Shown: positions 16,220-35,392 of the stretch, piece by piece
How positions within the stretch are numbered: position 1 is the stretch's first letter
How the letters are laid out: the number at the start of each line of letters is the position of its first letter
Assembly (NCBI GenBank): GCA_020059605.1
Contig: JAGVBT010000049.1
Coordinates: 1-45,119 of the forward strand
Reading direction: 5' to 3'
Source of the DNA: Deltaproteobacteria bacterium
GTDB taxonomy: Bacteria; Desulfobacterota; BSN033; UBA1163
DNA length: 45,119 nt
The notes under the pieces: generated by a model
Database searches by the model: none
The model's input: the letters and a program-made list of their open reading frames with translations, nothing else
What the model was told of the DNA's origin: nothing
Made by a program: the position numbers and the translations under genes

Positions 16220-17329
16220 ATGTTCAAAATGGCCGAAGACCTTTTTTACTGGTTAGCCTTACATTTGGTTCCGGGAATCGGAAGTGTTTTCATTAAAAGA
16301 CTTCTTGATCGTTTCAAAACTCCTCGGGCTGTCTTTCAGGCTTCGTACCATGAGCTCATGGAGGTTGAAGGACTGGGCGCGAAGGCGGCCGGCGAAATTC
16401 GAAAGGGGCCATCCGAACAGGCGGTGAAAAAAGAGTTGTCCCTCCTGGAACAGTCGGGAGCAAGGATTGTCACCTTAATCGATGAGGATTATCCTTCACG
16501 CCTCAGGGATATCTATGATCCTCCTGCCCTGCTTTACTTGAAAGGAGAATTGAAAGAGGCCGATCAATTAGCCGTGTCGATTGTGGGAAGCAGAAGGATT
16601 TCCCCTTATGGAAAGTGGATCACGGAGAAGATTAGCCGGGACCTTGTCCATCACGGCGTTACCATTGTAAGCGGAATGGCAAGAGGGGTCGATTCCGCGG
16701 CTCACTGGGGGGCCATTGCAGGAGGGGGAAGGACCATTGCTGTTCTGGGCTGCGGGGTGGATGTGGTCTATCCTCCCGAAAATCGTAATCTCTTCACGAA
16801 AATCATTGAGCAGGGGGCTGTCCTTTCGGAATTTTCCATGGGTTCATCTCCGGAGGGAGGACATTTCCCCAAGCGAAACCGAATCATCAGCGGCCTTTCT
16901 ATCGGCGTGGTTGTGGTCCAGGCCGGTCCGAAGAGCGGGTCCCTCATCACGGCCCAGTATGCCCTGGATCAGGGCAGGGATGTTTTCGCCATCCCGGGAA
17001 ATGTCGGGGCGGAGGGAAGCCGGGGGACAAACCGATTGATCAAGGACGGGGCAAAGCTAGTTGAATCAAGTGAAGATATCCTGGAAGAGATACTGCCCCA
17101 ATGGAAAAATGAAAAGGAGGAGAGGGTGGAGATCGAGCCCCGGAGGCCTGAACTGAGCGAAGAGGAGAAGGTTCTCTTTGAGATGTTAGGAGATCATCCT
17201 CTCCATATCGATATGATGATTCGAGAGAGTCCATTTGAGCCTGGCAAAGTGTCGAGTCTTCTCTTAAACTTAGAGTTGAAGGGGTTGGTTTCTCAATGGC
17301 CCGGAAAGTGTTTCAGCAAGAAGATGTAA
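16220..17329 (+). CDS. dprA: DNA-processing protein DprA
   Basis: 369-residue DprA/Smf, which loads RecA on incoming single-stranded DNA. An N-terminal helix-hairpin-helix region contains VEGLGAKAAGEI. The Rossmann-like core has VSIVGSRRISPYGK, VSGMARGVDSAAHWGA, TIAVLGCGVDVVYPPENRNL, RNRIISGLSIGVVVVQAG and SGSLITAQYALDQGRDVFAIPG. A C-terminal winged helix covers ~305-369. The upstream open frame to 16136 is non-conserved. The in-frame ATGs 16220 and 16229 both precede the conserved EDLFYWLAL; ribosome-site spacing (AAGGAAG near 16199) is poor, so the exact start is uncertain. Confidence 0.93.
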   Translation: MFKMAEDLFYWLALHLVPGIGSVFIKRLLDRFKTPRAVFQASYHELMEVEGLGAKAAGEIRKGPSEQAVKKELSLLEQSGARIVTLIDEDYPSRLRDIYDPPALLYLKGELKEADQLAVSIVGSRRISPYGKWITEKISRDLVHHGVTIVSGMARGVDSAAHWGAIAGGGRTIAVLGCGVDVVYPPENRNLFTKIIEQGAVLSEFSMGSSPEGGHFPKRNRIISGLSIGVVVVQAGPKSGSLITAQYALDQGRDVFAIPGNVGAEGSRGTNRLIKDGAKLVESSEDILEEILPQWKNEKEERVEIEPRRPELSEEEKVLFEMLGDHPLHIDMMIRESPFEPGKVSSLLLNLELKGLVSQWPGKCFSKKM

Positions 17330-17683: not shown

Positions 17684-19924
17684 ATGGTCAAGGGAATGAT
17701 CGTTGTTGAATCTCCGACGAAGGTGAGGACCCTTCAGAAATTTTTAGGAGACGATTATATCATTAAGGCCTCGGTGGGGCATGTCAAAGACCTTCCGGAG
17801 GGTCAATTGGGGGTGGATCTTGACCGGGATTTTCATCCCGATTATGTGACCATCTCCGGGAAAACAAAGGTCCTCCGGGAGCTCAAGAAAGCCAGTAAAG
17901 AGGTGAAGAATATTTATCTCGGGCCCGACCCGGACCGGGAAGGAGAGGCCATTGCTTGGCATATCGCCGAAGAGATCGACGGTAAAAATAAAAATATCTA
18001 TAGGGTTCTCTTCAATGAGATCACAAAGAAGGCCGTCCTCGATGCCCTCAAAAAACCCGGAAAGCTACAGCAATCAAAATACGAGGCCCAGCAGGCCCGA
18101 AGGATTCTGGACCGACTGGTGGGGTATCAGGTCAGCCCCATCCTCTGGGAGAAGGTGCGGAGGGGGTTGAGCGCAGGCCGCGTGCAATCTGTTGCCGTCC
18201 GGATCATCTGTGAGAGAGAAAGAGAGATTGAGCGTTTCATCTCTCAAGAATACTGGAGTCTGACCGCTACCCTGAGGGGAAAAGACTCCCCGGTTTCTTT
18301 CGACGCAAAACTGGTTAAGTGGAAGGGGAAGAAGGTGGACATGGCCAACGAGTCTGAAGCCGTGTCCATGAAGAAACGGCTCGAATCGGTCCCTTACACG
18401 GTTTCAAAAATCCTTCAACAGGAGAAGAAACGACATCCCCTTCCTCCCTTCATCACCAGCCGCCTCCAGCAGGAGGCCTCCCGGAAACTCTCGTTCAGCG
18501 CCTATAAGACCATGAGGATTGCACAGAAACTGTATGAAGGAGTGGACCTGGGCGAGGCAGGGACGGTGGGTTTGATCACCTATATGCGGACCGATTCTCC
18601 CCGCGTCTCTTCGGAGGCCGTCCATCAGGTCAGGGGGTGGATCAAAAACCGTTTCGGAGAATCCTTTGTTCCTCCCAAACCGAATCTCTATAAAAGCCGG
18701 AAAGGAGCCCAGGAAGCCCATGAAGCCATTCGTCCGACTTCGCTCGACCTGGAGCCCGACAGGATGAAGCCTGTGCTCGACAAAGATCAGTGGGCGCTTT
18801 ATAAACTGATCTGGGACCGATTCGTGGCTTCCCAGATGGCCTCGGCAGTTTTTCTTCAGACCACGATCGAGATCAAGGCGGGGGAAGGGATTTTCACTGC
18901 GTCCGGAAGCGTACCCGTTTTTCCCGGATTCATGGCTCTTTATGTGGAATCGGAGGACAATCACCGCTCCGCAGATAACCGCGCGGAAACGGAAGAGAAG
19001 AAGTTGCCGCTTTTAACGGAGGGAGAAGTCGTTGAATTACTGGGCCTCATGCCCAAACAGCACTTCACCCAGCCTCCCCCCCGATTTTCGGAGGCCAGCC
19101 TGATTAAGGAGCTCGAAGAGAAGGGGATAGGAAGGCCTTCCACCTACGCCGCGATTTTGAACACCATTAAAGGGAAGGAATACGTGGGGATGGAAAAAGG
19201 AAAGTTCTTTCCCACCGAATTGGGTTATCTGGTGAATGACCTTCTGGTGGTCAATTTCCCTGATATTCTCAACATTGAGTTCACGGCCCTGATGGAAGAG
19301 AACCTGGATAAGATCGAGGAGGGGGAAAAGGGCTGGGTGGAAACGCTTAAAGAATTTTATGCTCCTTTCCGGAAGGACCTGGAGATGGCAAAGGTCTCCA
19401 TGCGGGATGTGAAACGGGAGCAGATCCCCACCGACGCCGTCTGTGAGCAGTGCGGATCGAAGATGGTGAAGCGGTGGGGCAAGAGAGGTTATTTTCTGGC
19501 CTGCTCGAACTATCCCGAATGCCGTTATACCCGGGAGGTGGAGGAAAACGGTGGAAATCAAAAGGTGGAGACCGATGAGCGGTGCGAGAAATGCGGAAGC
19601 CCGATGATCATCAAGAACGGAAAATTCGGGAAATTTTTAGCCTGTTCCGACTACCCCGCCTGTAAGTCCACCCAGTCGATCCATACCGGTGTCCGCTGCC
19701 CCCAGGAAGGATGCGAAGGCATGATCTCGGAGCGAAGGACCCGCAAAGGCAGGACCTTTTATGGCTGCACCCATTATCCGACGTGCACCTTTGCCCTCTG
19801 GGACAAACCCGTTCCGGAGAAATGCCCTCAGTGCGATTATCCGTTCCTGGTTGAAAAACAGGGGAAGGGCGGTATCTCAAAGCGGTGCCCGAGCAAAGAG
19901 TGCGGATACCGCTCTTCAGAATGA
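17684..19924 (+). CDS. topA: DNA topoisomerase I (type IA)
   Basis: 746 residues. Relaxes negatively supercoiled DNA. TOPRIM domain at the N-terminus (MIVVESPTKVRTLQKFLGDD; GPDPDREGEAIAWHIAEE with the DxDxE metal site), RGLSAGRVQSVAVRIIC, and the active-site tyrosine Y300 in VGLITYMRTDSPRVS. IGRPSTYAAIL follows. The C-terminus holds four zinc-ribbon repeats: CEQCGSKM...CSNYPEC, CEKCGSPM...CSDYPAC, CPQEGCEGM...CTHYPTC and a diverged fourth. Its last 9 nt overlap the convergent radical SAM gene. Confidence 0.96.
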   Translation: MVKGMIVVESPTKVRTLQKFLGDDYIIKASVGHVKDLPEGQLGVDLDRDFHPDYVTISGKTKVLRELKKASKEVKNIYLGPDPDREGEAIAWHIAEEIDGKNKNIYRVLFNEITKKAVLDALKKPGKLQQSKYEAQQARRILDRLVGYQVSPILWEKVRRGLSAGRVQSVAVRIICEREREIERFISQEYWSLTATLRGKDSPVSFDAKLVKWKGKKVDMANESEAVSMKKRLESVPYTVSKILQQEKKRHPLPPFITSRLQQEASRKLSFSAYKTMRIAQKLYEGVDLGEAGTVGLITYMRTDSPRVSSEAVHQVRGWIKNRFGESFVPPKPNLYKSRKGAQEAHEAIRPTSLDLEPDRMKPVLDKDQWALYKLIWDRFVASQMASAVFLQTTIEIKAGEGIFTASGSVPVFPGFMALYVESEDNHRSADNRAETEEKKLPLLTEGEVVELLGLMPKQHFTQPPPRFSEASLIKELEEKGIGRPSTYAAILNTIKGKEYVGMEKGKFFPTELGYLVNDLLVVNFPDILNIEFTALMEENLDKIEEGEKGWVETLKEFYAPFRKDLEMAKVSMRDVKREQIPTDAVCEQCGSKMVKRWGKRGYFLACSNYPECRYTREVEENGGNQKVETDERCEKCGSPMIIKNGKFGKFLACSDYPACKSTQSIHTGVRCPQEGCEGMISERRTRKGRTFYGCTHYPTCTFALWDKPVPEKCPQCDYPFLVEKQGKGGISKRCPSKECGYRSSE

Positions 19925-22540: not shown

Positions 22541-24508
22541 ATGAGGTACGCCGAAACAGGTTATCAGTTAGAGATTGATCTATCCCGGGGAAACATTGAA
22601 AGGGTAGAAACTGACCCAAAATTAACCGAACTTCATCTTGGGGGGTTGGGCACCAATGCCAAGATGTTATGGGATAGGGTTCCCCCTGAAACCGACCCCT
22701 TTTCTCCCTCCAATCTCCTCATATTCAGCACCGGTCTTTTATGTGGCACACCTGCTGTCGGTGCGAATCGTACCATTGTCACTACCTATTCTCCCCAGAC
22801 GTTGCTCATGGGATACTCAATGATGGGTGGTTTTTTTGCGCCGGAATTGAAGTTTGCCGGTTATGACAAAATCATCTTTCGCGGTAAGTCACCCAATTTG
22901 GTCTATTTGTGGATCAACAATGACAAAGTGGAGATACGAGATGCCTCTCACTTGAAAGGGAAAGGTGCTGTTGAAACTGCAGCACTTATCCGACAGGAGT
23001 TGAAGGAGCCGAACGCCCAGGTAGCTTCAATCGGCCTGGCAGGTGAAAACAGGGTCTACATGGCTTCCATTGAGCATGGCAGATCCAGTGCCAGCCGGCT
23101 CGGACTGGGCGCTATCATGGGAGACAAAGGGTTAAAGGCCATCGCCGTTCGCGGAACCAAGGATATCAACATTGCCCGACCTGCTGAATACATGCAGCTC
23201 TGCAACGACGTGTTGCAGTATATAAAAGTCCGAGCACCCAACCTTATTCCCGAAGTCATGCCCATTTTAGCAGGGCTTGGGTCACCGCAGGAGATGGTCC
23301 ATTATGATGAGAAGTGGCATACCGAAAACTTCATGTGGGGAAATGCCCGCACACGGAGAAAAGATTTTTGGAATAAGGAAGTGGAAGAGAAGTGGAAGGA
23401 GACGCAGGAAAGGGTGCGGACGCGGCTCATCAGTTGCTATAATTGTCCCATGAAATGCGGAGCCATCATTTCCATTCCGGGAATTTCAACCTACATGATG
23501 AAATGTTTCTCGAAACTGACCTATACCATGGCGGCCTATTCGGACCTGGAATTTGGTTTTAGAATCGCGCAACGTGCTACGGAGTATGGCGTGGACGGAT
23601 TCTCGACCCCACAGGTCATGGCCTTCGGCCTTGAACTTTATGAAGCCGGCATTTTGACCGACCGGGACATGGCAGGAATGCCGTCCGATAACGAGGGAAG
23701 GTTTTACTGGTTGCTTGACAGAATCGTTCGACGGGAAGGAATAGGCGATGTTTTGGCCAACGGCACCTATTGGGCGGCCGAGCAGATCGGCAAAGGCGCC
23801 GAAGCCTATGCTCACAATAACATCAAGAAACATGAGCAGCTCCCTCTCAAGCTGGGAATGCTGAATCCTATTTATTTCCTGATGTATTGTACCGGCGAGA
23901 AAGGGAACATCACTCAAATCGAAGGAAATTTTCCCCAGGCGCCTTTTTCCACAATGGAGCTCAAAGAAGCGTTTGTAAAGGACTGGGTCCAAGCCCCTGA
24001 TGACAAGTTTAAGAAATACGTTCTGGACTGGGAAATGCGCGGGGAACGCTCAATGCCATTCTACCCCCCGGTTGAAGCCTGTTGTGAAATTGTCGACTGG
24101 CAAGAGAAGATGCATCACATTGATGATGCTCTCGGGTTGTGCGCCGGGTTGTCATCCTTTCCCCTGAAGCCTCCCTACCACATACACAATTTGCCGGCGT
24201 TCATCTCCGCGGCGACCGGAATGGATATGGATGAAGCCGGACTAACGCAAATATTCAATAGAAACCGCAATCTGGTTAGAGCCATCAATGTAAGAAGAGG
24301 CTTGAGAAGAGCCGATGAGAAGCCGCCGGAGGACCATTGGAAGAAACGATTTCCCGAGCTCGAAGAAAAGCTCTTAGATGGGTATTACAAATTTAAGGGA
24401 TGGGACCTTCAGGGTATTCCCACGAAGGAGACTTTACAGGAATTGGATTTGGCTTATGTCGCCGAAGACTTAGAGCAGAGAGGGATCATAAAAAATGAGC
24501 AAGGTTAA
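22541..24508 (+). CDS. bamB: Class II benzoyl-CoA reductase tungsten subunit BamB (AOR family)
   Basis: 655-residue aldehyde:ferredoxin oxidoreductase-family protein of the BamB type, the active-site subunit that reduces benzoyl-CoA to a cyclic dienoyl-CoA in obligate anaerobes. It begins MRYAETGYQLEIDLSRGNIE with the AOR N-terminal domain GGLGTNAKMLWDRVPP. The [4Fe-4S] ligands are C299, C302 and C306 (SCYNCPMKCG), with a late cysteine in LGLCAGLSS. By my count E251, E257, H260 and C322 fall at the positions I remember for the tungsten/substrate site of Geobacter BamB. AAGGGG lies before the ATG. bamC overlaps its end by 14 nt. A paralogue acting on a related aryl- or dienoyl-CoA cannot be excluded. 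Confidence 0.9.
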   Translation: MRYAETGYQLEIDLSRGNIERVETDPKLTELHLGGLGTNAKMLWDRVPPETDPFSPSNLLIFSTGLLCGTPAVGANRTIVTTYSPQTLLMGYSMMGGFFAPELKFAGYDKIIFRGKSPNLVYLWINNDKVEIRDASHLKGKGAVETAALIRQELKEPNAQVASIGLAGENRVYMASIEHGRSSASRLGLGAIMGDKGLKAIAVRGTKDINIARPAEYMQLCNDVLQYIKVRAPNLIPEVMPILAGLGSPQEMVHYDEKWHTENFMWGNARTRRKDFWNKEVEEKWKETQERVRTRLISCYNCPMKCGAIISIPGISTYMMKCFSKLTYTMAAYSDLEFGFRIAQRATEYGVDGFSTPQVMAFGLELYEAGILTDRDMAGMPSDNEGRFYWLLDRIVRREGIGDVLANGTYWAAEQIGKGAEAYAHNNIKKHEQLPLKLGMLNPIYFLMYCTGEKGNITQIEGNFPQAPFSTMELKEAFVKDWVQAPDDKFKKYVLDWEMRGERSMPFYPPVEACCEIVDWQEKMHHIDDALGLCAGLSSFPLKPPYHIHNLPAFISAATGMDMDEAGLTQIFNRNRNLVRAINVRRGLRRADEKPPEDHWKKRFPELEEKLLDGYYKFKGWDLQGIPTKETLQELDLAYVAEDLEQRGIIKNEQG

Positions 24509-25040
24509 GAAGAAAGTTAAGGTGATCAAAATCGATCTTGATAAGTGCAATGGTTGCCGGGCATGCGAGGTTATCTGTTCTGCATTTCATGCTACACCAA
24601 AGTATAGCAACAATAATCCGGCAAGGTCCCGTATTCGCGTGATTCACGATCCGCTGAGAGACATCTATCTTCCCGTATATGCGGGGGAGTATACGGCAGC
24701 CGAATGCATGGGCAGGGACAAATATGTGATTGACGGAAAGGAATATAGCGAATGTGACTTCTGCAGGGCTTCCTGCCCCTCTCGGGACGTTTTCAAAGAA
24801 CCTGATTCCGGCCTCCCTCTCAAATGTGATATGTGCGAAGACGATCCGGCACAAGAGAAGCCTCTGTGTGTTCAGTGGTGTTTGAATGATGCCCTGGTTT
24901 ACGAAGAAACGGAAGTGGAGGAAGAAGAGAAAAAAGAAGTGAAGCAGGAGGATGTTGAGATCGGATTGGAATCGATGATCGACAAATACGGAATGCAAAA
25001 GGTTCTCGAAACGGTTGCCCGAATGACAAAGAAAAGTTGA
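24495..25040 (+). CDS. bamC: Benzoyl-CoA reductase Fe-S subunit BamC
   Basis: 181-residue ferredoxin-like protein. CNGCRACEVIC (~18-28), a second set CDFCRASCPS (~92-101) and a third CDMCEDDP...CVQWC (~115-132) give several [4Fe-4S] clusters, as in the DMSO-reductase-type electron-transfer subunits that form the BamBC core. A charged tail (Glu/Lys-rich, ~140-155) follows. The ATG lies inside the bamB end (14-nt overlap), so translation is coupled. A perfect 10-bp hairpin follows the stop. Confidence 0.9.
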   Translation: MSKVKKKVKVIKIDLDKCNGCRACEVICSAFHATPKYSNNNPARSRIRVIHDPLRDIYLPVYAGEYTAAECMGRDKYVIDGKEYSECDFCRASCPSRDVFKEPDSGLPLKCDMCEDDPAQEKPLCVQWCLNDALVYEETEVEEEEKKEVKQEDVEIGLESMIDKYGMQKVLETVARMTKKS

Positions 25041-25069
25041 GAGATTTCTAAAAAAGCGAAGAAATCTCT
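25040..25069 (+). promoter_or_regulatory. Hairpin between bamC and bamD
   Basis: AGAGATTTCT and AGAAATCTCT form a perfect 10-bp stem around a 10-nt loop, starting on the last base of the bamC stop. No T tract follows, so it is more likely an mRNA-stability or processing element separating bamBC from bamDEF than a terminator. Confidence 0.55.
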
Positions 25070-25093
25070 GAGAAAAAAGGATCGAAAAAGAGT

Positions 25094-26248
25094 ATGGAGA
25101 CTGTACCTCTCACCCCCTTCAAAGTGGTCATCGATGGCATTAAAGAGGCTGGCGGAGATGCCTTTAAATTTTGCTATCAATGCGGAACATGTGATACGGC
25201 TTGCCCGTGGAACCGGGTTAGAAAATTTTTTATTCGCAGGATGGTCCATCAGGCACAATTCGGTGTGGTTCCTTTCGAATCCGAAGACCTGTGGCTATGC
25301 GCCTCCTGCGGCAATTGTGTTCAGCGGTGCCCCAGGGGTGTGGAGATCATTGACCTGATGAGGGCGATGCGGAGAATCATGGTGCCGGACGGGATCGTTC
25401 CCGCGAGCATCCCCAATCTTCGAGGCGTCATGACAAGCATTGCTAGTGTCGGGAACCCCTTGCGACAGGAGAAAGACCGGGCGGAGTGGGCAGAAGGGCA
25501 GTCCGTAAAACCGTTCACGGAGGGGACCGAGAACTTATATTTTCCCTGCTGCTATCCCAGCTATGACCCAAGATTAAAGAAGGTCGCCACGGCCACAGCC
25601 ACTCTCCTCAACAGGGCAGGGGTCGATTTCGGGATATTGGGTTCCAAGGAGAATTGCTGTGGCGAGAGTGTACGCAAAGTGGGCAATGAGGACCTGTTCA
25701 AACGGTTAGCCAGGGAAAACATCAAAACATTTATCGAGAACGGAGTGAAAAAAATCCTTGCTTCTTCCCCTCATTGCTACCACACCTTTAAGAACGAATA
25801 TTCGGAATTCAAGGTGAACTTCGAAGTGCTTCACATCACCCAATATCTGTCCCAGCTTGTCAACGAGGGAAGGCTGAAACTGACCAAAGAGTATAAGAAG
25901 CGGGTGACCTATCATGACCCGTGCTACTTAGGTCGGCACAATGGCATTTTTGATGAACCCCGGGAAGTCTTGAAGAAGATACCCGGCTTGGAACTGGTGG
26001 AGATGGCGGACACACGGGAGGACAGTCTCTGTTGCGGAATGGGGGGAGGCAGGATCTGGATGGAAACGGCAAAGGGTGAAAGATTTTCCGACCTCCGACT
26101 ACAACAGGCGATCGGGGTGGGCGCGGAGGTTCTGGTTACTTCCTGCCCCTATTGCATTGTCCAGTTTGAGGATAGCCGATTGACGCTCAAGGATAGCGAA
26201 GCCATACAGATTAAGGACGTCACAGAAATTATCCAGGAAGTGATTTAG
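25094..26248 (+). CDS. bamD: HdrD-like Fe-S electron-transfer subunit BamD
   Basis: 384 residues. The N-terminal HdrC-like module has two [4Fe-4S] motifs, CYQCGTCDTACP (~28-39) and CASCGNCVQRCP (~66-77). The C-terminal HdrB-like module has two CCG-type motifs: CCYPSYDP...ENCCGE and PCYLGRHN...SLCCGMGGG, the site type of heterodisulfide reductases. In the Bam complex it belongs to the soluble electron-confurcating/bifurcating module together with BamE and BamF (family knowledge). It lies 53 nt after bamC and 33 nt before bamE. Confidence 0.9.
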   Translation: METVPLTPFKVVIDGIKEAGGDAFKFCYQCGTCDTACPWNRVRKFFIRRMVHQAQFGVVPFESEDLWLCASCGNCVQRCPRGVEIIDLMRAMRRIMVPDGIVPASIPNLRGVMTSIASVGNPLRQEKDRAEWAEGQSVKPFTEGTENLYFPCCYPSYDPRLKKVATATATLLNRAGVDFGILGSKENCCGESVRKVGNEDLFKRLARENIKTFIENGVKKILASSPHCYHTFKNEYSEFKVNFEVLHITQYLSQLVNEGRLKLTKEYKKRVTYHDPCYLGRHNGIFDEPREVLKKIPGLELVEMADTREDSLCCGMGGGRIWMETAKGERFSDLRLQQAIGVGAEVLVTSCPYCIVQFEDSRLTLKDSEAIQIKDVTEIIQEVI

Positions 26249-26281
26249 CAAGCCAAATAAAATCAATGGGGTTATTGAGAA

Positions 26282-29200
26282 GTGGAAAAAGAACAATTTG
26301 AACAACTTTTTAAAAAGCTCTCATCAGGAAATTTTGGCGATGTGATGGTGGTCGGTAGTGGAATCAGCGGTGTTCAAGCCTCACTCGATCTTGGCAATGC
26401 GGGTTTTAAAGTTTACCTGGTTGATAAAAGCCCCTCCATTGGCGGCAAAATGGCCCAGCTTGACAAGACCTTTCCCACCAATGAGTGTTCCATCTGAATA
26501 CTATCGCCCAAACTGGTCGAGGTCGGCCGGCATCCAAACATAGAGGTCCTAAGCTATACTGAAGTTGACCGTGTCGAAGGGGAGGAGGGGGACTTCAGGG
26601 TAACTCTGGTTAAAAAGCCCAGATATATTATAGAGAGCAAATGCACGGGTTGCACCACTTGCGTGGAATACTGCCCGGTCAAGTACCCCGATCCATTTAA
26701 TCAGGACATATCGAAGAATAAAGCCATCCATATCTACTTTGCCCAAGCCATTCCCCTGATCACCTATATCGATGAAAGCTGTCTCTATCTTAAAGAAAAG
26801 AAATGTCGTATCTGTGAAGCGGTGTGCGAGAAAGATGCCATCGATTTTACCCAAACGCCAGAGAGGGTCGATATCAAGGTAGGAGCGATCATTCTCGCTC
26901 CGGGCTTTGAGTCCTTCGACCCTAAAGTGGGAAATAAATATGGCTATGGAAAGATGGCCAATGTGGTCACGAGCATGGACTATGAGAGGCTGTTAAGCTC
27001 CACAGGGCCATTCGAAGGGGAGATCAGGCGTGCTTCTGATTTGAAACATCCCCGGAAAGTAGCCTGGATTCAATGCGTCGGTTCCAGGCAGGTCATCCCT
27101 GGCGGTAAAAGCTATTGTTCGGCTGTTTGCTGCACTTACACCCAGAAACAGGTGATTTTGACAAAAGACCATGACGCAGAGGCAGAGTGCGCGATATTCC
27201 ATAACGATGTTCGATCCTACGGGAAGGATTTTGAGCGATTCTACCAGAGGACAGAGAAACTTCGAGGGATTCGGTTTATCAGGAGCTATGTCACCATCGT
27301 AAAAGAGGTTCCGGAAACAAAGAATATTATCCTTAAATATACAACCCCGGATGAGGGAACCAAAGAAGAAGAATTCGATATGGTGGTCTTATCCGTCGGA
27401 TTGAATCCCCCTGCTGATGCACATGAGTTGGCGAATCAATTCGGCATTGAGCTTAGTCCTCACGGATTCTGTCAAACGAATCCTTTTGATCCCATGGAGA
27501 CCACTCGTCGGGGAATTTTTGTAAGCGGAGCCTTCCATGGACCGATGGATATTCCCGAGTCGGTTTTTACCGCGAATGGTGCAAGTTCCCAATGTGGTGA
27601 ACTCCTTGGCTACCGGCGAGGGAAGCTCACCACAGAAAGGATCTACCCGCCCGAGAGAGATGTCTCGCAGGAAGAACCAAGGGTCGGCGTATTTGTATGT
27701 CATTGTGGAGCCAATATCGGAAGAGTCGTCGATGTCCCTTCTGCGGTTGAATACAGTTTAAGTTTACCTTATGTGGTTCATGCTCAAGAGCAGCTTTTTT
27801 CATGTTCCACGGAGTCGACCAATCAAATCATGGACGTCATCAAGGAAAAAGGGCTAAACCGTGTGGTCGTCGCGGCCTGTACCCCCAAAACACATGAGCC
27901 CACCTTTCGTTATTCGCTGCGAGAAGGGGGGATTAATCAATATTTCTTCGACATGGCCAATATCCGGGAACATTGTTCCTGGGTGCATTCAAAAGAAAAG
28001 GAGAAAGCCACCCAGAAGTCAAAGGATATCATCCGTATGTCGTTAGCTCGGGCTTGCCATTTGGAGCCACTTCAGGATTTTGATCTGCCGGTCGATAAGG
28101 CAGCGCTCGTGGTGGGCGGGGGGGTCGCCGGCATGACGTGTGCTCTCTCCATCGCCAACCAGGGGCATGAGGTTCACCTGGTGGAAAAGGAGCGAGACCT
28201 GGGGGGGATCGCCCGAAAGATACATCATACCCTGGAAGGAATGGATGTTCAGGCCTATCTGCGTGATCTGATAAAAAAGGTGTATCAACATCCTCAGGTC
28301 CATGTTTATACGGAGGCGACCATCACGGAGGTTACCGGTTATGTTGGGAATTTTGTAACCTGGGTAACGTCTGAAAGAGGAGTGACAGAGATAAAGCATG
28401 GTGCAGCCGTCATCGCGATAGGGGCTGAGGTACATCAACCTGCGGAATATCTTTATGGAGAAGATGATAGGATCATGACTCACCTTGAGTTGGAGGAGAG
28501 GCTCGCCAAAGGAGACGAAAAAGTCATCAACGCAGGGAGTCTTGTGATGATTCAATGCGTTGGCTGCAGAAATGAAGAGAGAAATTACTGTAGCAGAATA
28601 TGCTGTGGCGAATCCATAAAGAATGCTTTGAAACTGAAAGAGCTGAACCCCGGGATGGATATCTATATTCTCTTTCGGGACATGAGAACGTATGGGTATA
28701 GTGAGGATCATTACAGGGAAGCGGCGGGTAAAGAGGTAAAATTTATTCGCTATGAACCGCAAGACAAACCTCAAGTGGAAGCGGGTGAGTCGGAGGAAGG
28801 TCAGCCTGTTCTTAAGGTTACTGTAACGGATGATATTTTAGGGAGCAAGGTTGAGATTGATGCCGATTTCGTTGCCTTGGCCGCTGCCACGATTCCCACC
28901 GCAGGAAGTAAGGAAATATCCAAATTATTCAAGGTGCCCTTGGGGGCCGATGGCTTCTTCCAGGAGGCCCATGTCAAATTGAGACCTGTTGAGTTCGGCA
29001 CAGACGGGATTTATCTCTGCGGAATCGCTCACTATCCTAAGCATCTCTCTGAAGCGATCAGCCAGGCTTATGGAGCCGCAGGGCGAGCCTTAACGCTTCT
29101 CTCGCATGATACCGTTATCGCCTCTGGCTCTATTTGTGAGGTGGATGAGAAGAAATGTATGGGATGTGGGGCATGTGTTGAGGCCTGTACCTATGGTGCC

Positions 29201-29368
29201 ATAGAGCTTTATGAAACACGGCAAGGGAAGAAGGCGAAGATGAACCCGATTCTCTGCAAAGGAGATGGCCTCTGTAATACAAAATGCCCGACCGGCGCGA
29301 TTCAATTGAAACATTATGAAGATGAGCAGCTGATCGCCCAAATTGATGCGGCCATCGGAGACGGGTAG
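26282..29368 (+). CDS. bamE: HdrA-like flavin/Fe-S selenoprotein BamE (in-frame UGA = Sec72)
   Basis: 1028 residues if the UGA at 26495-26497 is read as selenocysteine. The GTG start gives [10 protein letters not shown]; the first FAD motif is [16 protein letters not shown] (~23-38), and the UGA falls in [18 protein letters not shown], where HdrA proteins have CS-x-C, so Sec replaces a conserved Cys. A ferredoxin module follows ([11 protein letters not shown] ~122-132; CRICEAVC), then the CHCGANIG module near 472, a second FAD-binding domain ([14 protein letters not shown] ~608) and two C-terminal [4Fe-4S] motifs ([11 protein letters not shown] ~958; [12 protein letters not shown]). The halves look like tandem HdrA copies, only the first with Sec. 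Gene callers will split it at 26497. It is the likely flavin bifurcation site (inference). Confidence 0.92.
26495..26530 (+). promoter_or_regulatory. Sec UGA and SECIS-like hairpin of bamE
   Basis: UGA at 26495-26497. CUGGUCG (26513-26519) pairs fully (two G-U) with CGGCCGG (26524-26530) around an AGGU loop 22 nt past the UGA. The distance and loop G/U fit bacterial SECIS elements. Confidence 0.75.
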
Positions 29369-29414
29369 CAGTCTACCCGATTAACTTATTTTCTAACGAA
29401 GGAGCTGAGAACGG

Positions 29415-30257
29415 ATGAGTGCAGGACTCAAATTTAAACCAAGGGTCATGGGCTTTGTATGCAATTGGTGAGGCTACGGCGCTGCTGACCTGGCTGGAGT
29501 TTCCAGACTGCAATACTCAAATGAAATAAGACTTGTCCGTGTCATGTGTACGGGAAGGGTAGACCTTGCGTTTGTCTTCCGGTCTTTCTATAACGGAATG
29601 GATGGGGTGTATATCGGTGGCTGCCGTCTTGATGAATGTAAATATATTACTCAGGGAAATTACCATGCGCTGAACATGGTGCTTCTATCTAAAAAAATAA
29701 TGGAACATATAGGGCTGAACCCGGAAAGGCTAAGAATCGAATTTATGTCTTCCGCTGAAGGAAGCCGTTTCGCAGAGACAGTAAACGACTTTATCAAAAA
29801 GGTGAGTGCGATAGGACCATTCGGAAAAAGTGAAGGGTTAGACGAAAATGGATTAAAGTCCAAACTCAATGAAATTGGAAGTTTACTTCCCTATATAAAA
29901 ATAGTGACCAGAGATAAATTATCATTACGTCTTAAAGAACCAGAAGAGTGGAATAAGCTTTTCACCAAGGACGAAATAAATAAATTGTTCAGTGAAGTTA
30001 TCTCGTACTACATCGACCCGGAAAAGTGCCAGGCCTGTATGACGTGCGCCAAGAGATGCCCCGTAGAGGCGATCATAAGCGCCAAAAACCAGGTTCATGT
30101 GATTGAGCAGGAGAAATGCATTAAATGCGGAACGTGCTTTGAAGTTTGCCCCACGAAATTTAGTGCAGTGACGAAGATTTCAGGCGAGCCTGTTCCGCCC
30201 CCAATTCCTGAAGAAAAAAGAACGATCATCAGAAAGGGTAAAGAAAAATCCATATAA
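29415..30257 (+). CDS. bamF: MvhD-like/ferredoxin selenoprotein BamF (in-frame UGA = Sec19)
   Basis: 280 residues with the UGA at 29469-29471 as Sec19. The start MSAGLKFKPRVMGFVC leads into CNW-U-GYGAADLAG, where MvhD/FrhD proteins have CNWC. CTGRVD, GCRLDECKY and NYHALNM complete the MvhD [2Fe-2S] domain (~10-150). The C-terminal part has two [4Fe-4S] motifs, CQACMTCAKRCP and CIKCGTCFEVCP. AAGGAG precedes the ATG. Conventional calling would start at 29544 and lose the N-terminal 43 residues including Sec. It passes electrons between BamE and partners. In other anaerobes BamGHI follow; here an Etf:quinone oxidoreductase follows. Confidence 0.92.
29469..29506 (+). promoter_or_regulatory. Sec UGA and SECIS-like hairpin of bamF
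   Basis: UGA at 29469-29471. CUGGA (29494-29498) pairs with UCCAG (29502-29506) around a GUU loop 27 nt past the UGA. A shorter stem than in bamE but in the accepted distance range. Confidence 0.65.
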
Positions 30258-30290: not shown

Positions 30291-30315
30291 GATGGAATGT
30301 CTAAAGGAGGTCATC

Positions 30316-32379
30316 GTGTCGCCGGTTAGCGCAACTTATTGGGGCATACCGGGCTATGTCATTTTCTGGGTTCTGTTTGCCGTCGCCTTCGGCCTGTTTG
30401 CGCAGAGGTTTTATCTCCTCTATCGCCTCATGCGTCTGGGGAAGCAGGAGAACCGCTTCGACAGAATAAGCGAGAGAATCAAGGCAATGCTGGTCGAGGT
30501 TGTCCCTCAATGGTGCACCCTGAAAACGGTCACTCGAAAAGACCTGGCAGGACTCGCACATGCTCTGTTATTCTGGAGCTTCAGCCTGTTTTTCATCAGT
30601 TACATTATCTTTATCGGTCTGGCCGGAGGTTTTGGACTGTCCCCGCTGATTGAGCGCACCCCATTTGAGACCGTCTATTTTTCCATCCTCGATATTGCCG
30701 CACTGCTGGTCACCCTGATTCTGATCGTGGCCGCCATCAGACGTTATGTCATCAGACCGCCGAGGCTGGAGCCAACGGCTGAGGCCGGCATCATTTTGGT
30801 GATGGTTTTTTCACTGATGGCGCTCCATGTGATCGGCGTCGGCTTTGACCATGCCAGCCGTGGGGTTCACACCTCCTGGCCTCCCCTGGGGGCAGCTCTG
30901 GCAGGTTTCCTCAACCAAACCGGCCTTTCACAGACCACACTGGAGGCAACCTCCCGGGGAGTGTGGTGGCTGCATTACCTGGTGATCCTCAGCTTCATGG
31001 TCTATATTCCCCATTCCAAGCATCTGCACATTCTTGCCTCCCTCGTCAATGCCTTCTTCAAACCACTTGGACAGAAAGTGGTGCTTGAGCCCATCCCTCT
31101 CGAAGCCCTTGAAGCTCCTGAGGGCGAGGCGACCTTCGGCGCATCGAAGATTCTGGATTTCACCTGGAAAGACTTGCTTGATCTTTATGCCTGTGCCGAG
31201 TGTGGCCGGTGCCATATTCATTGTCCTGCCCAGCTTACTGGCAAGACCCTCTCGCCCAGGGAAGTCATTCATCACTTGAAAGAGCATTTGCTGGAAACGG
31301 GCCCTAAATTGCTTGCCCCACAGGCTGAACCCTCTTCGGAAAGCCAGGTCGATATGCCGGCTAAAACGATGATCGGTGATGTGGTCACCGAGGAGGAGAT
31401 CTGGGCCTGCACCACCTGCGGTGCCTGTCAGGAAGTATGCCCGGTCAATATCGAGCACATACGCAAGATCATCGACCTTAGGCGAAATCTGGTGCTGTCG
31501 CAAAGTAAGATGCCGGAAAGCGCCCAGGTGATGCTCCGAAATATGCAGCAAAGAGGACACCCATGGGCTGGAGTCCAGTCGATGAGGTTGAGGGGCGACT
31601 GGACGAGCGGTCTCGAACTCAAAATATTGGCTGAAGGCGATAATGCTCACACTCTCTTCTGGGTGGGTTGCACCGGGGCCCTTGTTGAGCGAAATGTCAA
31701 CGCAACTCTTTCCATGACGAGAGTGCTTAAAGCGGCAGGCGTCGAGTTCGGAGTATTGGGCGAGTCCGAAACCTGCTGCGGCGACCCGGCACGGAGAGCT
31801 GGCTATGAGTTCCAGTTCCAGATGATGGCAGAGCAAAATATTGAAATTTTCAAAGGCTTCAACATTAAAGAGATCCTCACCGCCTGTCCCCACTGCTATA
31901 ATACCATTAAGCATGAATATCCAAAGTACGGCGGCGATTTTAAGGTGGTTCACTACACCGAGCTCATTGCCGATTTGATCCGTCAGGGTAAATTGAAACT
32001 GCCCAACGAACTGAATTCCAGGCTTACCTATCATGATCCCTGCTATTTAGGGCGTTACAACAGTGTCTATCATGAGCCACGCCGGATACTGCAGGCGATC
32101 CCTAATGCAAAACTTGAGGAAATGGAACGATCGAGAGATACGGGTTTTTGCTGTGGCGGCGGCGGCGGACTCATGTGGATCGAAGAACAGCCCGGTACAA
32201 CAAAAATCAGTCAAATGCGTATTGAAGACGTTCTCAAGACTGGGGTTGAAACCGTCGTGACCGCCTGCCCTTATTGCCTGCAGATGTTTGAAGATGCCAT
32301 CGAACATAAAGGGGTTAAGGAATCGTTGAAGGCAAGAGATCTGGTTGAAATTGTGGATGAAGCCATGAAATCATCTTAA
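30316..32379 (+). CDS. Membrane-bound Etf:(methyl)menaquinone oxidoreductase-type Fe-S protein (EMO, DUF224/CCG)
   Basis: 687 residues. An N-terminal NarI-like cytochrome b domain has about five membrane helices (~10-35, 77-105, 115-145, 155-178, 215-245) with histidines suited to haem b. A ferredoxin pair follows (CAECGRCHIHC; CTTCGACQEVCP), then an HdrD-like C-terminal domain with CCGDPARR, DPCYLGRYN and CCGGGGG. This layout is that of the membrane oxidoreductase that takes electrons from Etf into the menaquinone pool in Geobacter and syntrophs. The start is the GTG at 30316, preceded by AAAGGAGG; an ATG at 30292 lies upstream of that ribosome site. etfB and etfA follow directly. Confidence 0.9.
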   Translation: MSPVSATYWGIPGYVIFWVLFAVAFGLFAQRFYLLYRLMRLGKQENRFDRISERIKAMLVEVVPQWCTLKTVTRKDLAGLAHALLFWSFSLFFISYIIFIGLAGGFGLSPLIERTPFETVYFSILDIAALLVTLILIVAAIRRYVIRPPRLEPTAEAGIILVMVFSLMALHVIGVGFDHASRGVHTSWPPLGAALAGFLNQTGLSQTTLEATSRGVWWLHYLVILSFMVYIPHSKHLHILASLVNAFFKPLGQKVVLEPIPLEALEAPEGEATFGASKILDFTWKDLLDLYACAECGRCHIHCPAQLTGKTLSPREVIHHLKEHLLETGPKLLAPQAEPSSESQVDMPAKTMIGDVVTEEEIWACTTCGACQEVCPVNIEHIRKIIDLRRNLVLSQSKMPESAQVMLRNMQQRGHPWAGVQSMRLRGDWTSGLELKILAEGDNAHTLFWVGCTGALVERNVNATLSMTRVLKAAGVEFGVLGESETCCGDPARRAGYEFQFQMMAEQNIEIFKGFNIKEILTACPHCYNTIKHEYPKYGGDFKVVHYTELIADLIRQGKLKLPNELNSRLTYHDPCYLGRYNSVYHEPRRILQAIPNAKLEEMERSRDTGFCCGGGGGLMWIEEQPGTTKISQMRIEDVLKTGVETVVTACPYCLQMFEDAIEHKGVKESLKARDLVEIVDEAMKSS

Positions 32380-32395: not shown

Positions 32396-33190
32396 ATGCA
32401 TACAATCGTCTGTATAAAACAAGTCCTGGATCCTGAAATACCGCCGGCCAAATTCAAGATTGACCCCGAGGGGAAAAAGGTGATTCCTCCACCCGGAGTG
32501 CCCCCTGTAATCAGTGTCTTTGATGAACGGGCGGTGGAGGCAGCCTGCCGGCTCAAAGATAAGCACAAGGGAAAAATAACCGTGATCAGCATGGGCCCGG
32601 GGAAAGTTGCTGATGTGATTAAGCACGCCATCGCCATGGGGGCCGATGATGGATTCGTTCTTCAGGATCCGGCCTTCGAAAACCTCGATAGCTTCGGGAC
32701 GGCCTATGTTCTGGGAAAAGCCATCCAGAAAATTGGCGGGTATGATCTGGTTCTGTGCGGCCGTTATTCGGCTGACTGGAACAATGGCCAGGTTGGTTCT
32801 ATTTTAGCCGAGATCCTTGGCATTTCTGTCGTTACCTCCGCTTGTGATATCGAGGCAGTGGACAAGAAGCTTCGGGTAAAGAGGATACTGAAGGATGGCT
32901 ATGAAGTCCTGGAAGCCCCGATGCCCAGCCTGATTACCGTCAGCGGTGAGATAGGGCTTCCTCGCCTTCCCGCTGGAATGCGCCTCATGATTGCCTCCAA
33001 AAAGCAGATTCCGGTCTGGAAAGCACAGGATATCGGGGCGGAACCCTCGGCGCTGGATAAGGCGAATGCCCATCTCGAAGTCACCGGCCTCTCTGTTCCG
33101 GCTCGAAAGACCGAGTGTGAGTTCGTTACAGGGAATACTCCCGGCGAAGCGGCTGACAATTTAGCCTTAAAGCTTGTTAAACTGATGTGA
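32396..33190 (+). CDS. etfB: Electron transfer flavoprotein beta subunit
   Basis: 264-residue EtfB: IVCIKQVLDPEIPPAKFKID start, FDERAVEAACRLKD, ISMGPGKVADVIKHAIAMGAD, LCGRYSADWNNGQVGSILAE and a C-terminal arm. With EtfA it carries FAD (and AMP or a second FAD) and collects electrons from acyl-CoA dehydrogenases. GAGGAG lies before the ATG, 16 nt after emo. Whether it belongs to the bifurcating or non-bifurcating class cannot be settled by eye, but neighbouring emo favours quinone-linked Etf. Confidence 0.93.
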   Translation: MHTIVCIKQVLDPEIPPAKFKIDPEGKKVIPPPGVPPVISVFDERAVEAACRLKDKHKGKITVISMGPGKVADVIKHAIAMGADDGFVLQDPAFENLDSFGTAYVLGKAIQKIGGYDLVLCGRYSADWNNGQVGSILAEILGISVVTSACDIEAVDKKLRVKRILKDGYEVLEAPMPSLITVSGEIGLPRLPAGMRLMIASKKQIPVWKAQDIGAEPSALDKANAHLEVTGLSVPARKTECEFVTGNTPGEAADNLALKLVKLM

Positions 33191-33274: not shown

Positions 33275-34282
33275 ATGGCTAATCATAAGGGTGTTTTGGT
33301 TTGTGGTGAGATTGCGGATGGGAAATTGGCGCCCATCACGATAGAACTCCTCGGAGTCGGAAGAAAGCTCGCCGATGAACTGACCGAAGAATTATGTATC
33401 CTATTGATGGGCGGCAAAACAGGGGGATTGGACAAGGAGGCTATCGCCTACGGGGCTGATCAAGTCTATGTGGCTGAAGACAGTCTCCTGGATGGCTACA
33501 ATTCCGACGCCTACACTCAGGTCACGGCTAACCTTTGCCAGGAAGTGCTTCCTTCCATCATGCTTCTTGGGCATACGGATGTTGGCTGTGACTTGGCCCC
33601 ACGATTAAATGCTCGCTTGGGGGGTGGGCTGGCGATGGACTGTATGGGGTTATCCATTGATCCGGCAACCAAGGTTCTGGTCTCGACCAGACCGATCTTT
33701 GGCGGGAACGCTTATGCCACAGTGTTATCAAAGTTGGCCCGGCCTCAGATGGCAACTCTAAGACAGAAAACCGTACCACCGGCAGAGCGCAATGACGCCC
33801 GGCAAGGTCAGGTTATTCCGGTGGAAAACAAGATCGATCCTTCTGGGCTCAAAGTTAAGGTGATCGATCGGATAAAAGAGGAAGTGGAAGGGGTGAAGCT
33901 GGAGGACGCAGAAGTCGTCGTTGCTGGGGGTCGCGGCATCGGCAGCGCTCAAAATTTCGAGATGATCCGGGAACTTGCTCGGGTTCTGGGTGGGTCTGTT
34001 GGTGCTACTCGGCCCCCATGTGACGAAGGTTGGACGCCGGTGATGGTCCAGATTGGCCAGAGCGGAAAGGTGGTCAGCCCCAAACTTTACATCGCAGTCG
34101 CTCTGTCCGGCGCCATGTCGCATATCGTTGGCTGTTTGGGATCAAAGGTCATTGTGGCTATCAATAAGGATCCCGAGGCCAATATCTTCAGCGTAGCCCA
34201 CTTAGGTATCGTCGCCGATTTTAAGGAAGTCTTACCTGCTCTAACCTCAAAATTCAAAGAACTGCTGCCCACCCAGAAATAA
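33275..34282 (+). CDS. etfA: Electron transfer flavoprotein alpha subunit
   Basis: 335-residue EtfA without an N-terminal ferredoxin extension. N-terminal domain [31 protein letters not shown], then the FAD domain [62 protein letters not shown] and [20 protein letters not shown], all canonical FAD contacts. It is the last gene of the bam-emo-etf run; the full-length transposon begins 19 nt after its stop, so any original terminator or further operon genes have been displaced. Confidence 0.94.
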
Positions 34283-34378: not shown

Positions 34379-35392
34379 ATGCCTCGTCAGGCGAGACTTG
34401 ATATTCCCGGAACCCTTCACCATGTGAACCTCCGGGGAATCGAAAAGCGAAGGATCTTCGATGATGATAGGGACTGTGAGAACTTTGTCGAACGGTTAGG
34501 GAATCTTGTCGAAGAGACGGAAACTAAAATTTATGCGTGGTCCTTATTGACCAATCACGCCCATCTGCTGTTACGAAGCGGGCCTTTAGGTCTACCGAAA
34601 TTTATGAGAAGGTTTCTCACCGGTTATGCGGTGACTTATAATCTCCGTCATTTTCGGCACGGCCATTTGTTTCAAAATCGTTATCATTCCATTGTTTGCG
34701 ATGAGGATGTTTATTTTCGAGAGTTGGTTCGTTACATTCATCTCAATCCCCTGAGGGCCCGTTTGGTAAGCAGTCTATGGGAATTGGATCGATATCCCTG
34801 GTGTGGACATGCCGTGTTGATGGGACGGATCAGAAATGATTGGCAGGATCGGGATTATGTTTTGTCTTGGTTTGGAAAGAGGGAACCGGATGCGCAGAGG
34901 GCTTATTGGAGATATTTGGAGGAAGGGGCCAATCAGGGGAGACGTCCTGAGTTAATTGGAGGGGGGGTGCTGCGGTCGTATGGGGGTTGGTCAGCCGTTT
35001 TATCCTTGCGTAAATCCCGGGAGAAAATAAGTGGGGATCAAAGGATTTTGGGGAGTGGGGATTTTGTGAAGAGAGTGTGGAAGGAATCAGGGGAGCAATT
35101 GTGTGATCAGTTTAGTTTACTGGAACGGAACAAAAGAGTCGAGGCGATTTTTGAAGAAGAGTGTCAAAAGGGGGAGTTAAATCTTGGAGAACTACGAATG
35201 GGGGGGCGCCGGGGCGATATTCCACGAGTACGTTCGGAGATCGCGCAACGGTTGGTCAAGACATTGGGAATGTCATTAGCCGAGGTAGCGCGGTTATTGG
35301 GAGTTTCAACATCAGCAATATCCAAAATGCTACATAGAAGTTCCCAAAAGAAAAACAAGAAAGCAGTGAATAGTTCAACTAAGTCAACATAG
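34379..35392 (+). CDS. REP-associated-type Y1 transposase (IS200-like HUH fold)
   Basis: 337 residues. MPRQARLDIPGTLHHVNLRG is the classic start of REP-associated tyrosine transposases; the HUH metal site is in LTNHAHLLLR and the catalytic tyrosine in RYIHLNPLRARLV. A C-terminal extension (~215-337) ends in a helix-turn-helix (AEVARLLGVSTSAISKMLHR) that probably binds the terminal hairpins. AAGGAG lies before the ATG. The copy appears intact, with no frameshift or stop. Confidence 0.92.
   Translation: MPRQARLDIPGTLHHVNLRGIEKRRIFDDDRDCENFVERLGNLVEETETKIYAWSLLTNHAHLLLRSGPLGLPKFMRRFLTGYAVTYNLRHFRHGHLFQNRYHSIVCDEDVYFRELVRYIHLNPLRARLVSSLWELDRYPWCGHAVLMGRIRNDWQDRDYVLSWFGKREPDAQRAYWRYLEEGANQGRRPELIGGGVLRSYGGWSAVLSLRKSREKISGDQRILGSGDFVKRVWKESGEQLCDQFSLLERNKRVEAIFEEECQKGELNLGELRMGGRRGDIPRVRSEIAQRLVKTLGMSLAEVARLLGVSTSAISKMLHRSSQKKNKKAVNSSTKST

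Follow-up and report, generated by a model that had tools for sequence, protein, structure and literature searches.

Predicted Selenocysteine in Both BamE and BamF of a Class II Benzoyl-CoA Reductase Gene Cluster from a Deltaproteobacteria Bacterium

Gene Cluster and In-Frame UGA Codons

The DNA analyzed here is a stretch of 45,119 nucleotides (contig JAGVBT010000049.1 of assembly GCA_020059605.1, from a Deltaproteobacteria bacterium), referred to below at its full length as the window. It carries bamB-bamC-bamD-bamE-bamF in this order on the + strand (22541-30257), very probably an operon for a class II (tungsten) benzoyl-CoA reductase, a complex for the oxygen-independent reduction of aromatic rings, with both electron-transfer subunits, BamE and BamF, being selenoproteins. 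The features of these two genes are as follows:

26282..29368, + strand: bamE, HdrA-like flavoprotein with one in-frame UGA (HdrA2 model NF040770)
26495..26497, + strand: UGA codon, predicted selenocysteine (Sec) 72 of BamE (motif CSIU)
26513..26530, + strand: proposed bacterial selenocysteine insertion sequence (SECIS) hairpin of bamE, with a 7-bp stem and the loop AGGU (-10.2 kcal/mol)
29415..30257, + strand: bamF, MvhD domain plus C-terminal ferredoxin domain, with one in-frame UGA (FlpD PF02662, 150.4 bits; Fer4 domains)
29469..29471, + strand: UGA codon, predicted selenocysteine 19 of BamF (motif CNWU)
29494..29506, + strand: proposed bacterial SECIS hairpin of bamF, CUGG-AGUUU-CCAG, with the frozen codons GCT GGA GTT TCC AGA

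Read through its UGA, bamE encodes 1028 amino acids from a GTG at 26282, with a single TGA at residue 72, and bamF encodes 280 amino acids from an ATG at 29415, with a single TGA at residue 19 (GFVCNW-U-GYGAADLAG). Neither gene contains another internal stop; a TGA at 26276-26278 precedes the GTG start and is outside bamE. It had originally been predicted that both frames run past their UGA with family similarity on each side, and that the UGA takes the place of a conserved cysteine of HdrA and MvhD. Structural homologs agree with this on both counts: HdrA chains 8rvu and 5odc align across BamE residue 72, and MvhD chains 5odc_D, 8rvu_F, and 7bkb_F across BamF residue 19, all with Cys at the respective site. 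BamE scored 943 bits against NF040770, under the cut-off of 1100, and its residue 72 is located in the first FAD domain (Pyr_redox_2 match at 20-426). The MvhD domain of BamF contains five invariant Cys/Sec positions (16, 19, 45, 70, and 75). Selenocysteine at both UGA codons is strongly supported by three lines of evidence, namely the codon states of relatives, the frozen codons of the putative hairpins, and the presence of selA, selB, and selD, which are described below.

Codon States among Relatives

Relatives were taken as the best 80 of 474 loci matching the window BamB, a sample that leans towards the window's own kind. The bamE gene reaches codon 72 in 56 of these 80 loci (the remaining 24 are not counted), and together with the window and three second copies this gives 60 BamE rows, in which codon 72 reads TGA 49 times and TGC 11 times. 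Codon 19 of bamF is TGA in 48 of 53 rows, TGC/TGT in four, and unreadable in one. A tabulation of U versus C among homologs, as proposed with the original prediction, found Cys or UGA and nothing else at both sites (57/57 BamE and 48/48 readable BamF rows in the alignments, where UGA was entered as C).

When the two genes are considered as a pair (bamE/bamF), the 50 clusters with both sites readable, including the window, divide into 40 TGA/TGA, seven TGC/TGA, three Cys/Cys, and no TGA/Cys (Fisher test p = 0.006, which is descriptive only, as the rows are related). Two clusters named Geobacter (L084 and L118) combine a Cys-BamE with a Sec-BamF. This table omits two paralogs outside the clade that are ~45% identical (L049 at 2494 and L059 at 9555), which stay among the 49 + 11 rows of the codon-run comparison and the 46 + 11 rows of the comparison of twelve-codon windows below. 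The bamF site is unreadable in eight Sec-BamE clusters, six of which end earlier, while the codon contains N in L049 (at 13909) and in L043. In the close relative L043, whose genes follow the order seen here, the BamF Sec site itself is interrupted by NN and a small deletion (17168-17240).

Five genomes of the same genus have bamF matches of 73-89% identity, each with one TGA; bamE likewise has TGA in all five, and the hairpin region is the same in 5/5 fetched genus pairs. G001, G006, and G007 have only weaker bamF matches (≤55% identity), with or without TGA, and G003 has no bamF match at the threshold. A TAG was seen in one bamF match of G002, outside a slightly shorter second alignment. Extra stops occur in three rows, at the protein end in L086 and L059 and as an internal second UGA in an MvhD paralog of L049. 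This paralog (L049, 5604-5987) is beside a distant UGA-bearing HdrA, and its two UGAs are in a CTWU motif and at a later Cys (GGC motif); it is possibly an MvhD with two Sec residues. The row for the MvhD selenoprotein family in a 2026 review gives the figure 2 (PMC13188914).

Candidate SECIS Hairpins

Bacterial-type decoding of UGA as Sec would call for a hairpin directly downstream, with constraint on its synonymous sites. In bamE, codons +6 to +9 after the UGA (CTG GTC GAG GTC) are identical in 46 of the 49 UGA rows and in none of the 11 Cys rows, and the three deviating UGA rows also alter the protein. Elsewhere in bamE, the same residues use their top codon in 53-76%, and the eight most frozen of 635 twelve-codon windows all overlap this place. 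The SECIS element of E. coli fdhF has a similar AGGU loop. In bamF, codons +8 to +12 (GCT GGA GTT TCC AGA) are identical in 39/48 UGA rows and 0/4 Cys rows; the freezing test of this gene draws on a small number of columns (31 windows).

The folding energies give little support to the hairpins, and for bamF they run contrary to expectation. Although the 25-nt piece of the bamE hairpin has a z of -2.38, the 46-nt pieces of the window gave z -0.40 (bamE) and +0.51 (bamF). Among the relatives, Sec bamF folds worse than its synonymous shuffles (mean z +0.94, 47 rows) and Cys bamF better (mean z -1.49, four rows), while Sec bamE is only modestly better than shuffles (mean z -1.12, 49 rows; Cys bamE -0.04, 11 rows). 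Folding energy is a poor witness of a SECIS, and codon freezing is the informative test. The claim of a hairpin, which is a prediction in both genes, is weaker for bamF than for bamE, because the folding energy of the former is not significant and its Sec rows fold worse than shuffles.

Selenocysteine Machinery

The source assembly (4.38 Mb in 167 contigs) is 93.7% complete, with about 6% of the genome estimated missing. It encodes full-length SelA (622.4 bits), SelB (371.7 bits), and SelD (391.7 bits), each above its family cut-off. Of the machinery that the original prediction had named for a check, these three genes were thus recovered from the incomplete assembly, and tRNA-Sec was not. SelD is itself UGA-bearing (N-terminal KKAG-U-AAK), as are two FdhA (formate dehydrogenase) genes (CARL-U-HSS and QARI-U-HSA) and a second MvhD (CEH-U-AY; L174 around 1524, C116); altogether, six genes of the source genome retain UGA at a Sec site within an otherwise readable match. 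The CEHU MvhD on C116 adjoins large HdrA-like matches without UGA. BamE has 29 matches in the source genome, of which nine cover residue 72, and UGA is present in BamE alone.

The search for tRNA-Sec in the source assembly counts against selenocysteine decoding. All 11 matches to RF01852 are other tRNAs (labeled Ser, Trp, Leu, Arg, Lys, or Tyr by ARAGORN), and none of the 28 matches to a tRNA-Sec pattern in the source genome was called a tRNA by ARAGORN (0/28). Queries with the tRNA-Sec of the genus mate L122, with flanks and alone, returned only the neighboring gene and chance-level or repeat-like matches. In L122 the tRNA-Sec gene follows a yggU-like gene, and other genes occupy that place in the source genome. 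The yggU-like gene of the source genome (L141, C63 14400-17400) is ~2 kb after selA, with no tRNA downstream.

A strong tRNA-Sec match is present in 8/9 genus mates, G004 being the one without, and in 1/6 genomes of the same class. All nine of these strong matches are tRNA-Sec with the anticodon TCA, and CTGGACTTCAAATCCAG is invariant across the nine aligned copies. The simplest reading of the missing tRNA-Sec is an assembly gap, with loss of the gene as the rival.

Alternative Explanations

If the lineage had indeed lost tRNA-Sec, Sec decoding would be failing and BamE and BamF would now end at their UGA codons. The failed search in the source assembly, the occupation by other genes of the place where L122 has its tRNA-Sec, and the lack of a strong match in G004 would all fit this explanation. 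Yet SelA, SelB, and SelD are full length, UGA is kept at the Sec site in six genes, about 6% of the genome is missing, and the tRNA is present in eight of nine genus mates, so that we regard the loss as very unlikely. Sequencing or assembly error, in which the true codons would be TGC/TGT, or pseudogenization of both genes has an even lower standing. It could appeal to an assembly of 167 contigs that is 93.7% complete, but the same codons are TGA in tens of other assemblies, including 5/5 genus pairs, and neither window gene has a further stop. We therefore reject it, as the original prediction had done.

That UGA specifies a different amino acid (e.g., Trp), through suppression or reassignment, draws on nothing specific beyond the fact that it is read through, and almost certainly does not apply here. 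TGA terminates three other open reading frames (ORFs) of the window (ending at 19924, 25040, and 33190), and as it is an ordinary stop there, the code has not been reassigned. Furthermore, homologs have Cys alone as the alternative at both sites, and the hairpin codons are frozen solely in UGA forms. Reassignment was rejected on these grounds, which leaves Sec at residues 72 and 19 as the preferred reading.

History of the Sec States

In a 57-row BamE tree (this and the BamF tree are quick IQ-TREE runs), all 45 in-clade rows with Sec are monophyletic with an SH-aLRT of 100, and the 10 in-clade Cys rows, including both Geobacter, branch outside this group. A single change of state suffices once the two outgroup rows are set aside. 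The records in the Sec-BamE clade bear names from several phyla. The state of residue 72 is coupled with that of position 81, which is Cys in 10/10 in-clade Cys rows and Val in 49/49 Sec rows; the eleventh Cys row, a paralog, has Val at 81.

Sec BamF is found in 7/10 in-clade Cys-BamE clusters. Sec in BamF is wider than Sec in BamE and is perhaps the older state too, although the BamF tree, which needs three changes of state, is too poorly resolved to order the Sec gains. Because Sec BamE forms one clade and Sec BamF is wider still, both look inherited. Sec at both sites is thus supported, as in the original prediction, but the two substitutions, which it had described as independent, are not events of this genome.

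Operon Content and Gene Order

The other genes in and directly after the bam cluster are as follows:

22541..24508, + strand: bamB, tungsten-type benzoyl-CoA reductase catalytic subunit (4z3w_A match; AFOR_N and AFOR_C)
24495..25040, + strand: bamC, ferredoxin-like subunit (Fer4 domains, with the cut-off reached by Fer4_6 only), after bamB
25094..26248, + strand: bamD, HdrBC/CCG-domain subunit (two CCG stretches and Fer4_8)
30292..32379, + strand: FeS oxidoreductase with CCG and Fer4 domains and four hydrophobic segments, at the position of bamGHI
32396..33190, + strand: EtfB, electron transfer flavoprotein (ETF) beta (ETF beta models, all below the curated cut-off)
33275..34282, + strand: EtfA, ETF alpha (ETF alpha models, all below the curated cut-off)

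BamB matches PDB chain 4z3w_A ("Benzoyl-CoA reductase, putative") over residues 1-650 with 1142.5 bits, while the runner-up chain, an aldehyde oxidoreductase, scores 215.6 bits, and this gap identifies the locus as a class II benzoyl-CoA reductase core. Structure 4z3w is that of the Geobacter metallireducens enzyme. The class II assignment covers the BamB-F core only. Genes of bamGHI, the NADH-type module, do not follow bamF in the window (the rest of the genome was not searched for them), and the FeS oxidoreductase and EtfBA are found there. The hydrophobic segments of the former begin near residues 17, 84, 125, and 161. The same FeS oxidoreductase and EtfBA genes are directly 3' of bamF in L043, L049, L057, and L083, and NuoE-/NuoF-like genes, as judged by eye, follow bamF in L062. 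Further downstream in the window, an ORF at 34379-35392, between EtfA and a TrmFO-like gene, resembles by eye a REP-type Y1 transposase.

Proposed Mechanism

We propose that the hairpins, which start 18-25 nt past the start of the UGA, would recruit SelB with selenocysteinyl-tRNA at each UGA, so that Sec would be inserted into BamE and BamF in place of termination. Within BamE, Sec72 would then fall in the first FAD domain, as part of a CxxU motif. A motif of MvhD is predicted to ligate a [2Fe-2S] cluster (PMC6085437), and given the five invariant Cys/Sec positions of BamF, Sec19 may be a ligand of this cluster or a neighbor of it. Sec72 and Sec19 are thus probably at neighboring redox stations, on the electron route that links the BamBC active site with an outer donor/acceptor module; a selenolate at these stations would adjust potential or rate.

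The outer module here appears, from gene order, to be the membrane FeS oxidoreductase and EtfBA instead of the NADH-type BamGHI. For a comparable pair of ETF and membrane FeS oxidoreductase in Desulfococcus multivorans, electron transfer to menaquinone was proposed (PMC5109826), and by extension ring reduction in the present version may be coupled to the quinone/ETF side. A broader scenario, which we offer as a speculation that may well prove wrong, is that of a nested Sec pair: BamF would have acquired Sec first, and BamE would have gained it once, later, with the loss of Cys81; Sec72 and Sec19 would form a selenium-tuned relay that helps to deliver very low-potential electrons to the aromatic ring, and the other end of this relay would have been rewired from NADH (BamGHI) to the membrane FeS oxidoreductase and ETF in some lineages, including this one.

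Implications for Annotation and Physiology

Annotation that halts at UGA leaves only 71 residues of BamE and 18 of BamF, or else picks later starts (GTG 26663 for bamE and ATG 29544 for bamF), so that metagenomic clusters for class II benzoyl-CoA reductase can be mis-scored. Organisms with such clusters would need selenium as well as tungsten for anaerobic breakdown of aromatics. Since Cys/Cys, Cys/Sec, and Sec/Sec forms all occur in nature, the contribution of each Sec can be tested.

Comparison with Known Systems

The bamBCDEF order is shared with the class II BamBCDEFGHI systems of G. metallireducens and D. multivorans, but here BamE and BamF are both predicted to contain Sec, and an FeS oxidoreductase and EtfBA are present rather than bamGHI. 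In the G. metallireducens complex, selenocysteine was reportedly found by Huwiler in 2019. For D. multivorans, BamE is already annotated as Sec-encoded, by a UGA upstream of a SECIS (PMC5109826). BamF of Geotalea daltonii is described as a predicted selenite-binding electron-transfer protein in a trace-element study (PMC13119186).

Both motifs also have counterparts outside the bam operons. The CSIU motif of BamE matches that of the selenoprotein HdrA (CxxU), although BamE is a 1028-aa form inside a bam operon, and the CNWU motif of BamF matches that of the selenoproteins MvhD/VhuD/FrhD (CxxU), with the difference that BamF here has a C-terminal ferredoxin domain. Sec HdrA and Sec FrhD were catalogued in 2006, a Sec HdrA is described for Desulfobacterium autotrophicum (PMC2702500), and HdrA CxxU and MvhD/VhuD CxxU are among the prokaryotic selenoprotein families in the list of the 2026 review (PMC13188914).

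Table 3 of PMC1794560 gives one Sec FrhD and lists no Sec HdrA for G. metallireducens, and gives four Sec FrhD and four Sec HdrA for Syntrophus aciditrophicus. We infer that these counts fit the Cys/Sec state of our Geobacter rows and the Sec/Sec state of our syntroph rows, provided that the FrhD of G. metallireducens is BamF; the passages concerned make no link to bam. The same paper and the review describe adjacent Sec-HdrA and Sec-FrhD genes in an hdrA-frhD-frhG-frhA operon of archaea and some Deltaproteobacteria (PMC1794560; PMC13188914). This adjacency is shared with bamE and bamF, but that operon continues into hydrogenase genes, whereas the bam operon starts with the benzoyl-CoA reductase genes.

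The paired distribution of Sec in BamE and BamF was not found in the open-access literature searched, which lacks two primary Bam papers. While Sec in these protein families is already known, what is fresher here is the paired and nested distribution, the coupling of positions 72 and 81, and the replacement of bamGHI by the FeS oxidoreductase and EtfBA.

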